Assembly: GCF_000003815.2 (NCBI RefSeq) | Contig: NC_049983.1 | Span: forward strand, 14,804,212 to 14,868,211 | Direction of reading: 5' to 3' | DNA length: 64,000 nucleotides | Source of the DNA: Branchiostoma floridae | Taxonomy: Eukaryota > Chordata > Leptocardii > Amphioxiformes > Branchiostomatidae | Shown: positions 4,101 to 7,100 of the stretch, one piece after another | Layout: the number at the start of each line of letters is the position of its first letter | Position numbering within the stretch: position 1 is the stretch's first letter | Program-made: the position numbers and the translations under genes | Notes under the pieces: model-generated | What the model saw: only the letters and a program-made list of their open reading frames with translations | Databases searched by the model: none | Told to the model about the DNA's origin: nothing

Positions 4101-7100
4101 GTATTGCACGCACAGTCCTATTACCCGGTGTTGGTGAGGATTTAACCGGTAGTTTCTCTCTCAGACTTGGTGTCGGCAGCCACTTCTTGTGGGTGGGCAG
4201 TGACAGCTGGGGTACAAAGGTCACGCCGGTAGAGGGCCAGGAAGAAGCCGCAGAGGGCGCCATTACAATCCTCTTCAAGAGCCAGACAATCCCAGGTAAT
4301 TCCGCCCACGCCTGGCTCTACCGGGAGATGGGAACAATCACTGACACTTCAGCGGCACGCAGGCGATTAAACGTCATTCAAAGTCGATTGTGTGGTGAAC
4401 TAATTTTAAGTTCTGACGGACAGCAATTTTGTCATTACGGTATTCTCCATGACACAAATATAGCCCTGTATGCATCATTCAAAATGTCGCCTAATTTCGT
4501 GGGATGGTCTCTAAATAAGGAGTTTTAGTCTCCAATTAAGAAGGAATGAATACCAAAAAATACCGGTCCAACCGTACAGGTATTTCTTGCTTTCGTTCAA
4601 AGACAGAAACACGTGACCTTGTTGAAAATAGATCTTCTATTTTCCCTATCACAATACCGGCCATTGAAAATAACATGCAAAATGAACAAAAATAGTGGTC
4701 ATATTGTAAGCGACTTGTCCGTCTGATAACAGCACTCTACTGTTGTCATCAATGCGATGCAGGAAAAATGGCATTCGCAGTGCATCAGAACTACTTTCTT
4801 CATTACCATACCTTCCTGGCTAGAGGGTATATATACTAAAACTTTGTTACAGCATTACAAGCTTTGGGGATGGAAAGTCTAGGTGGATATCCTTCTTTTG
4901 AAGTCAATGCTATTATCTGGCGACCGATGTTTGATGTAGTTGATATGTGGGCGTAGCTTAATCGCCGCATGCCACAGTAAAGAGAGTTGCTTTCTCAGAA
5001 AATAGAGGAACAGTGATACGAAGTAATTAACAAAAATAAAAGAGATCTAAGGACATTTTAGTAAGTGCGCTCACGCAAATTGTTAAGGACTGTCGAATTC
5101 CGTATGGAAAAAACCTTCTAAAATATCCTGCACATTTGCTTTGCCTCTGACAGGATTTGACAGGTACTTCACGAAGTTGAAGCCAGAGAACAACAGGCGA
5201 GACGTGTGGTTTGAAGAGTACTGGGAGAGCCACTTCAACTGTAGATTCGACAACATCCCCAGCAACACAGGGGGAGATGGTCTACAGAAATGTACAGGTA
5301 GGATTTGGGCAGAGATAACAGTCTACAGAAATGTACAGGTAGGATTTGGGCAGAGATAACAGTCTACAGAAATGTACAGGTAGGATTTGGGCAGAAACGG
5401 TCTACAGAAATGTACAGGTAGGATTTGGGCAGAAACGATCTACAGAAATGTACAGGTAGGATTGGGGCGGTACTGTTACTGTCTACAGAAATGTACAGGT
5501 ATAATTGGTGTGGTAACGGTCTACAGAAATGTACAGGTAGGATTTGGGCAGAAACGGTCTACAGAATTGTACAGGTAGGATTGGGGCGGGAACGGTCTAC
5601 GACAAGAACTCGGAGAAAATGGCCCGTCAGGGACAAAGAAAGACCACGCTAAGCCCCTAGAAATACAAGAAAACATTTCTTCAAACGATCTAAGAAATGT
5701 ACAGGTAGGATTGGGGCGGTACTGTTACTGTCTACAGAAATGTACAGGTATAATTGGTGTGGTAACGGTCTACAGAAATGTACAGGTAGGATTTGGGCAG
5801 AAACGGTCTACAGAATTGTACAGGTAGGATTGGGGCGGGAACGGTCTACGACAATGATGGATGAATGATACGTCATGGACAAAGAAAGACCACGCTAAGC
5901 CTCTAGAAATACAAGAAACATTTCTTCTACACGATTCCATCCTTTGACGTGTCCGATGGAAACTGCGTCCGCAATTACGCCAATTATTTGTGACGGGAAT
6001 GACTCCCCCCGGCAAAACTGCAAAATCCCTACAAAACATCCTTCTCAGGAAGAAGAACGTAAAACCATTTTCTTGCACCCCAAGGCTGCCTTGTACAAGG
6101 AAACGACAAGAAAAGTGCCGGAACAGCAATTTAGAAGTCATTTTGCGGATGAGCCGATGATTTATCGTCCCCTCCACTGTGGAGTTTGTGTAATCTTCTG
6201 GGTCCTCGGCAGTTTGTATGATGGATTACAAGGCTTTGATTGCAATGAAAGAAACGTTAGTGCCGGTTCCAAAATATGATGAGAAAGATTCCAAGTGATG
6301 CTGCACTCCTTTATGTACTTTGGCGTCTGTCCTGTCAAATCCACTGAAATCCTTGATTTCGCCACTACGTGATATAGTCGGTTAGTACATGGCGCACCAA
6401 CATCAGTCACCAGATATTAAAGATCTGAAGATACGTTTATATGTACTGAATGTCACGCAGATCCAACATATCTTTGAAATGAGTACGATTTGTCGGCAAG
6501 CTAGCATTTGTCATTATGATATTGAGAATTACAAAACACTAAGTTTAACATAATTGAAAAATAACCTAACTACAATATTGCAATGCCACAAGGACACTTT
6601 ATCTTGGTGGCATGGGCTCTCTATTGACATTTGTGTGGGCAGGTTTCTCCCTCTAGAAATGTGAGATATTAGCTAAATGCATGCAGTCTGACAGCACGAC
6701 ATCGTTATTTCCTTGTGGTAAAACACATCACGAAATCCCAACACTATTATGGCAGCGCAACATGGAAACATCTAGGGAACAAAACTGTTCCGTTCGCACA
6801 CTGTTTTACACAGTCATATTGATGTATCGAAAACTAATCAAAGCTCGAAATTTTGGTAGAATTAATTCTATGTAGGATTAAACCATGGTTTCCCATTCAA
6901 GTTATATCCTGATTTCGATTAAGGATCAGGAGCAACATGGTGAGAACTTGCTCAAGAAAATGGACGTTTGCACCTGTATGGTAGATTATCGATAGCAAGT
7001 GGGACACCATATTCAGAAGCGACGTGTTGGCTTACGATTTCTTTTACCTAGTCAAAAGATCTGGCTGAAATGCGCGTGTGGTGTTTTTTGGTTCGCCCAA

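Follow-up and report, generated by a model that had tools for sequence, protein, structure and literature searches.

Twelve tandem copies of an exon end and its 5' splice site in a lancelet metabotropic glutamate receptor gene: a probable boundary minisatellite of a genome-widespread kind

The window, by which we mean the whole 64,000-nt stretch of Branchiostoma floridae DNA that was analysed, lies at C5:14,804,212-14,868,211 and carries the exons of a class C G-protein-coupled receptor along its left end. The predicted protein contains ANF_receptor, NCD3G and 7tm_3 domains (Pfam), its best PDB chains are mGluR7, 8, 4 and 6, ahead of mGluR3, and its spliced product ranks mGluR4, 7, 8 and 6 ahead of mGluR3. 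Because the best solved relatives are mGluR7, mGluR8 and mGluR4, we assign the gene by homology to the group III metabotropic glutamate receptors. Scans of the 64,000 nt for tRNA genes and Rfam families gave no matches. Tandem repeats are also present at 15097-15570 and 54688-54990 (162-163-bp and 110-bp units). The features on which the argument rests are as follows.

900-1223: ANF_receptor piece (Pfam)
3563-3805: ANF_receptor piece (Pfam, 23.7 bits, below the cut-off of 25.4)
5154..5297, plus strand: mGluR coding exon, part of the ligand-binding domain, ending ...GLQKCT-G (junction translation; phmmer)
5279..5600, plus strand: first part of the array, eight units, donors 1-8 spaced 38-43 bp (TRF, 38-bp period, 8.2 copies)
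5298..5303, plus strand: donor 1, CAG/GTAGGA, predicted functional (7/9 consensus matches, -11.2 kcal/mol, sole frame-keeper)
5298..7456, plus strand: host intron, 2159 nt, containing donors 2-12 (junction translation)
5357..5359, plus strand: in-frame TAA reached from donors 3-12 (junction translation)
5433..5935, plus strand: higher-order duplication of 249 bp, in which donors 9-12 are copies of donors 5-8, with a non-repeat tail (TRF)
7457..7660, plus strand: next exon, ANF_receptor domain (Pfam PF01094, E 2.1e-9, at 7459-7659)
7803..8922, plus strand: exon with NCD3G and 7tm_3, only its 5' boundary placed (Pfam 7e-11 and 7.4e-65, at 7805-8920)

The exon that bears the array is 144 nt long and lies between an upstream intron of 858 nt, the preceding exon end being set at 4295 by frame reading, and the 2159-nt downstream intron. 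It matches mGluR7 over its full translated length (phmmer, E 1.8e-9, query residues 1-47 of 47); searched alone against Pfam, 5156-5296 matched no family. The 8-mer TACAGGTA is present at both ends of the host intron, at the donor (5293-5300) and at the acceptor (7452-7459; junction TACAG/GTA), as would be expected from proto-splice-site duplication or from chance.

The junction motif TGTACAG/GT (the slash marks the boundary) occurs twelve times in a row, with last exonic bases at 5297, 5338, 5379, 5417, 5455, 5498, 5536, 5574, 5704, 5747, 5785 and 5823 and spacings, in order, of 41, 41, 38, 38, 43, 38, 38, 130, 43, 38 and 38 bp. The original prediction had described twelve donors at 38-43 bp: the count stands, and the regular period fails once, at a spacing of 130 bp, where a non-repeat segment separates the two 249-bp blocks. 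The further proposal that the repeated unit joins a receptor exon end to its donor agrees with an acceptor placed before 5154 and a donor after 5297; each unit consists of 19 nt of exon end (5279-5297) and about 19 nt of intron start. The coordinate 5298 used in that prediction is the G of the first GT, the last exonic base being 5297. The 38-bp period recurs at 5683-5849 (TRF), and duplication of a block of about 249 bp, as had been proposed, is recovered over 5433-5935 with a TRF score of 886 and 93% matches. The block tails, 5618-5689 and 5864-5935, are 82% alike.

Ten of the twelve donors read CAG/GTAGGA, with a predicted U1 duplex of -11.2 kcal/mol. The other two, after 5498 and 5747, read CAG/GTATAA and are weaker (-7.7 kcal/mol), so that an earlier description of the sites as near-identical for U1 fits only the majority. 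For these predictions we took the U1 5' end in its generally known form; the best U1 gene of the genome contains ATACTTACCTG, and 19 of 23 U1 matches lie above the family cut-off. Ten donor-like sites in the window have a copy at most 300 bp away at 80% identity or more, all of them within the array, and by the same criteria none of ten Markov-shuffled windows gave any donor-like site with a nearby copy. A candidate signal of lower variability in the exonic part of the unit across copies 1-8 (1/17 positions variable vs 7/16, Fisher p 0.017) was rejected, as it vanishes without copy 6 (1/17 vs 3/16, p 0.34).

The reading frame distinguishes the donors sharply. Splicing from donor 1 gives ...KCT-G-KK and restores the open frame, and the protein translated from 5154-5297, 7457-7660 and 7803 onward aligns across the junctions to mGluR4 and mGluR7. 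Use of donor 2 (GT at 5339) adds 41 nt, and the shifted frame reaches a stop within the next exon, at 7613; extension from donor 1 meets the TAA at 5357, which stands in the path of donors 3-12; both outcomes had been foreseen. On translation all eleven extra donors thus lead to premature stops, and among the twelve only the first is predicted to encode a receptor, as originally claimed.

The repeat unit appears to be unique to this locus. With up to 2 mismatches, a 21-mer of the unit has 15 matches in the genome; 11 lie inside the array, and the remaining 4 compare with 2 matches of the reversed control 21-mer, so no other copies stand clearly above control level. Searching the genome with the protein sequence of the two exons gave 19 matches, two of them in the window itself. 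Nine paralogous places, on C14 (two), at C5:14.941 Mb, on C11 (four) and on C13 (two), have no intron at the junction, and the eight others cover one side of the junction only. The copies at C5:14.893 Mb and C9:10.686 Mb have an intron at the same position with a single donor; downstream of each, the exon end has no self-match better than 0.53, which we take as background. The copy at C9:11.293 Mb has a self-match of 0.50 and an uncertain donor. At C9:10.686 Mb the exon ends ATGTACAG/GTAAGG in single copy. Since this paralogue has the boundary sequence singly, the comparison suggests that the boundary letters are old and their amplification newer.

Scans of 513,431,437 bases in 431 contigs indicate that tandem donors are frequent in this genome. 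Triplets of CAGGTRAGT with spacings of 27-57 nt stand at 1930 places (927 + 1003) and the reversed pattern at 5; many of the 1930 belong to a dispersed family of about 51 bp. With spacing restricted to 27-45 nt the figures are 237 (158 + 79) and 0. Acceptor-like triplets of TTTNCAGGW, 27-57 nt apart, number 233 (140 + 93) against 83 (19 + 64) reversed. Overlapping triplets are counted separately, so all these place counts exceed the numbers of arrays. The single motif CAGGTRAGT and its reverse occur 4 and 3 times in 251,825 bases; as far as such small counts can tell, the frequency of single sites does not seem to be the cause of the donor excess. A random survey of 20 stretches of 10 kb from C5, including 12,175 N, held 22 clusters in which a donor-like site recurs in tandem at most 300 bp away. 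Three stretches (L010, L015 and L016) account for 19 of the clusters, mostly 206-215-bp satellites. Those three stretches, being rich in long satellites, were left out of a test with the loose motif AGGT[AG]; in the remaining 17 of 20 stretches there was no excess (3 tandem clusters, vs 2, 2, 2, 2 and 3 for permuted motifs). On donor bias this loose, small-sample test contradicts the strict genome scans.

The ~51-bp dispersed family (e.g. C1:29239917-29241320) has a unit that contains a consensus donor and an acceptor-like tract. At C1:29.24 Mb and C2:2.33 Mb its plus- and minus-strand arrays stand back to back, in the manner of foldback elements.

Several of the other arrays also lie at exon ends. 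One of four survey clusters inspected has coding support: in L008 (minus strand, donor after 2919) a TMC exon ends in CAG/GTAACG, a donor repeated twice at 115-bp spacing with a fourth, altered copy, and the Pfam match rises from 15.5 and 25.2 bits for the exon pieces to 39.0 when they are joined. We read 21 further donor arrays. Six come from C1 (L039-L044), where by our own reading 33 of the 80 matches listed, in 6 loci, are arrays other than the 51-bp kinds, seven loci of which were left out of the choice. Fifteen (L048-L062) come from the 27-45-nt scan, whose 100 listed matches form 24 loci by our own grouping, six of them one C7 cluster; these fifteen comprise all the loci listed for C2-C6 plus the first among the six on C7. 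In seven of the 21 there is protein homology at E < 1e-3 in an open frame that ends at the first donor; an eighth match is weak.

L039: dynein heavy chain (PDB 2.7e-6; no Pfam match)
L040: dynein heavy chain (Pfam 2.9e-6)
L041: TALPID3 (7.1e-8)
L049: BAR (2.5e-4, below Pfam's cut-off)
L050: CHD1 (PDB 1.7e-19; Pfam helicase 0.0016, below cut-off)
L051: Na/Ca exchanger (2.1e-7)
L062: PhyH (2.3e-4, at cut-off; match ends 26 residues before the donor)
L053: BACK, weak (0.0081, below cut-off)

Six more (L042, L044, L054, L055, L056 and L058) have an open frame of at least 41 residues with no family match at 0.001, two (L059, 20 residues; L057, 27 residues) have shorter frames without a match, four (L043, L048, L052 and L060) have no open frame longer than 24 residues at the first donor, and L061 is masked (7 + 1 + 6 + 2 + 4 + 1 = 21). 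The dynein and TALPID3 genes carry further arrays a short way upstream (L046, ahead of L039, and L047, ahead of L041). TALPID3 is also the match of the exon that precedes the L047 array (2.4e-10). The exon directly ahead of the L046 donor array matched no family, and the one before it matches the dynein AAA_6 domain (5.7e-8).

Several details of these loci deserve record. In L046:10-210 (C1:220.2 kb) an acceptor with its exon start, CCCCACAG/AAAGCC, stands five times in tandem at 47-bp spacing, one copy reading CACGG; the last copy is the start of a dynein heavy-chain exon (Pfam AAA_6), and this acceptor-side array lies in a gene that also bears donor arrays. At C3:34.02 Mb (L056:1-300 and 617 onward) an exon apparently has its start repeated on the upstream side and its donor on the downstream side. 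The six C7 loci (C7:17949686-18062361) carry near-identical 32-bp donor arrays across 113 kb; PhyH-like coding sequence adjoins the first, the one locus read, and the array has perhaps been carried along by gene duplication. Judged by eye, about 33 of the 35 bp of the CHD1 unit (L050) are exon end, and the Na/Ca exchanger unit (L051) is 23 of 29 bp exon end plus GTGAGT. These units are nearly all exon end, so a duplicated segment can end just behind the donor.

We consider it likely that the receptor array is a mirage, in the sense of a minisatellite that has expanded where an exon meets its intron, probably near-neutral and one of a class widespread in the genome. Its tandem unit spans the boundary, the unit length of 38-43 bp falls within the 10-160 bp of published cases, and 12/12 units contain the AG/GT splice signal. 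A stretch of about 38 bp would have been copied in tandem and multiplied through slippage or unequal exchange, with duplication of the 249-bp block as a later step. Units and block are evident in the letters themselves, and from them we infer the mechanism and the order of events. Every new copy falls downstream of the exon end; copies 2-12 are therefore intronic and would leave with the intron whenever donor 1 is used, so that nothing coding would be lost. Premature stops upstream of further junctions lead to mRNA decay, and transcripts from donors 2-12 would accordingly be expected to be degraded. Between use of donor 1 and removal or decay of the rest, the array is probably near-neutral and silent, with donor 1 the copy predicted to be in use. 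There may be some leak into distal donors, followed by mRNA decay.

The prediction for donor 1 rests on position. The ten main donors are equal in predicted U1 binding, so position should decide among them. Exon definition would favour the donor nearest the exon's acceptor, donor 1, an expectation that follows from a short exon between long introns. In a study of human splicing events and minigenes (PMC9225289), the acceptor-nearest of donors of similar strength was favoured where the flanking introns were long, and the donor nearest across the intron beside short ones. Strength-matched events chose the upstream donor in 60% overall, and more under exon definition; without such matching, all four intron classes showed a preference for the downstream donor. 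The same source recounts classical in vitro work in which the donor nearest across the intron wins, an outcome that would here mean donor 12. Proximity, as a preference and not an absolute rule, predicts mainly donor 1 in this gene.

Plain neutral slippage does not account for the 237-to-0 donor bias. It is conceivable, and we hold it tentatively, that tandem amplification of 5' splice sites is favoured genome-wide by a process linked to the donor, or to U1 and co-transcriptional structure where introns begin, and that this process yields donor minisatellites frequently in this lineage, the receptor array being one product of many. The excess of donors over acceptors could come from polarity: donor copies lie behind the site in use and would be harmless, whereas acceptor copies precede theirs and would be used first. 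Polarity alone leaves the 237-to-0 ratio of donors to the reversed pattern unaccounted for, and a donor-linked mutational bias therefore has to be entertained.

The original prediction also raised a functional role, in which the extra donors act as a splicing sink, U1 decoy or regulator, competing for U1, diverting transcripts to stops and so setting the receptor level. Nine of the eleven extra donors share the predicted U1 energy of donor 1, and all eleven end in premature stops, as such a device would have it. Against this, published lancelet cases are reported or suggested to be spliced normally, the position rule described in PMC9225289 favours donor 1, and similar arrays occupy exon ends of unrelated genes, which makes a role specific to the receptor unlikely. 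We consider the idea doubtful, and our comparisons lend it no support. Nor do we favour a U1 platform, in which repeated donors would recruit U1 for exon definition or for suppression of premature intronic polyadenylation. There are ten strong predicted U1 sites within ~530 nt, and tandem consensus donors are far commoner genome-wide than the reversed pattern, but the paralogues manage without an array and the only two intronic AATAAA, at 7347 and 7402, lie ~1.5 kb past it, near the acceptor (ATTAAA occurs at 6416, 6877, 7298 and 7426). With AATAAA placed only there, telescripting appears an unlikely role, and the platform as a whole improbable.

Assemblies often mis-size arrays of this sort, and an assembler could have made the array or its block duplication. 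We regard this as very improbable: the units differ among themselves and the block tails are only 82% alike, so the blocks are not one stretch placed twice. Of the published lancelet cases, one mirage is reported to have come out wrongly in a draft assembly (PMC3087553), and another was upheld on re-sequencing (PMC3902484). Arrival of a dispersed satellite or transposon at the exon end, as the origin of the array, can practically be dismissed, since the unit contains the receptor's own coding sequence and its 4 outside matches compare with 2 for the control, even though the genome does hold the dispersed ~51-bp family with consensus donors.

On our preferred reading, a boundary mirage, the receptor array looks ordinary for the B. 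floridae genome. A row of up to a dozen near-identical donors is nonetheless a ready-made natural experiment on 5' splice-site choice: with donors of equal strength, the outcome should depend on position only. Should the class prove as common as the scans suggest, the lineage would supply replicate arrays in quantity, conserved genes (CHD1, dynein, TALPID3, Na/Ca exchanger) being among their hosts, and RNA-seq data across them would allow study of exon definition, nonsense-mediated decay and intron gain. Were a donor-linked process at work, such arrays would equally lend themselves to asking how the spliceosome selects one of a dozen near-identical donors.

Minisatellites across exon/intron boundaries have been described in amphioxus as mirages in the Adh, globin, troponin C and PGBD5 genes (PMC3087553, PMC3902484). 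Splicing is reported to be undisturbed in the first three and suggested to be so in PGBD5; splice signals are present in many units, not all (PMC3087553, PMC3902484), and length is unstable (PMC3087553). The globin authors noted that repeated AG/GT signals could serve as cryptic sites (PMC3087553). VCBP3 introns contain whole exons or parts of exons, and some of these have canonical splice sites (PMC2632668). Our literature search, largely without subscription papers, found no published genome-wide count of boundary arrays, and the scale found here exceeds that in the literature located.

These systems compare with the receptor array as follows. Adh3 (Canestro et al. 2002, via PMC3087553, PMC3902484) likewise has a tandem minisatellite that crosses the boundary, with units of 10-72 bp vs 38-43 bp here; it is another gene, and somatic length variation is reported for it. 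BflGb9 duplicates an exon 3' boundary, as the mGluR array does, and RT-PCR suggests normal globin splicing (PMC3087553). The units of BflGb6 and BflGb9 are 150-160 bp, unlike the 38-43 bp of the receptor, and BflGb6 involves an acceptor, with 6 and 3 units in two haplotypes, whereas the mGluR gene has 12 donor copies and a higher-order block (PMC3087553). In lancelet PGBD5 the first of the 60-bp and 108-bp repeats abuts the 5' splice site, as in the mGluR gene, and two lancelet sequences have different copy numbers (2 or 7, 3 or 6); it differs in being another gene with fewer copies, in which normal splicing is suggested, not shown (PMC3902484). Human duplicated genes have boundary tandem repeats that vary in number, as lancelet mirages do, but these can create novel introns and alternative splicing patterns (PMC2812944). 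Set beside these cases, the receptor array appears to be a fine example of a kind already known, not a device peculiar to this receptor.
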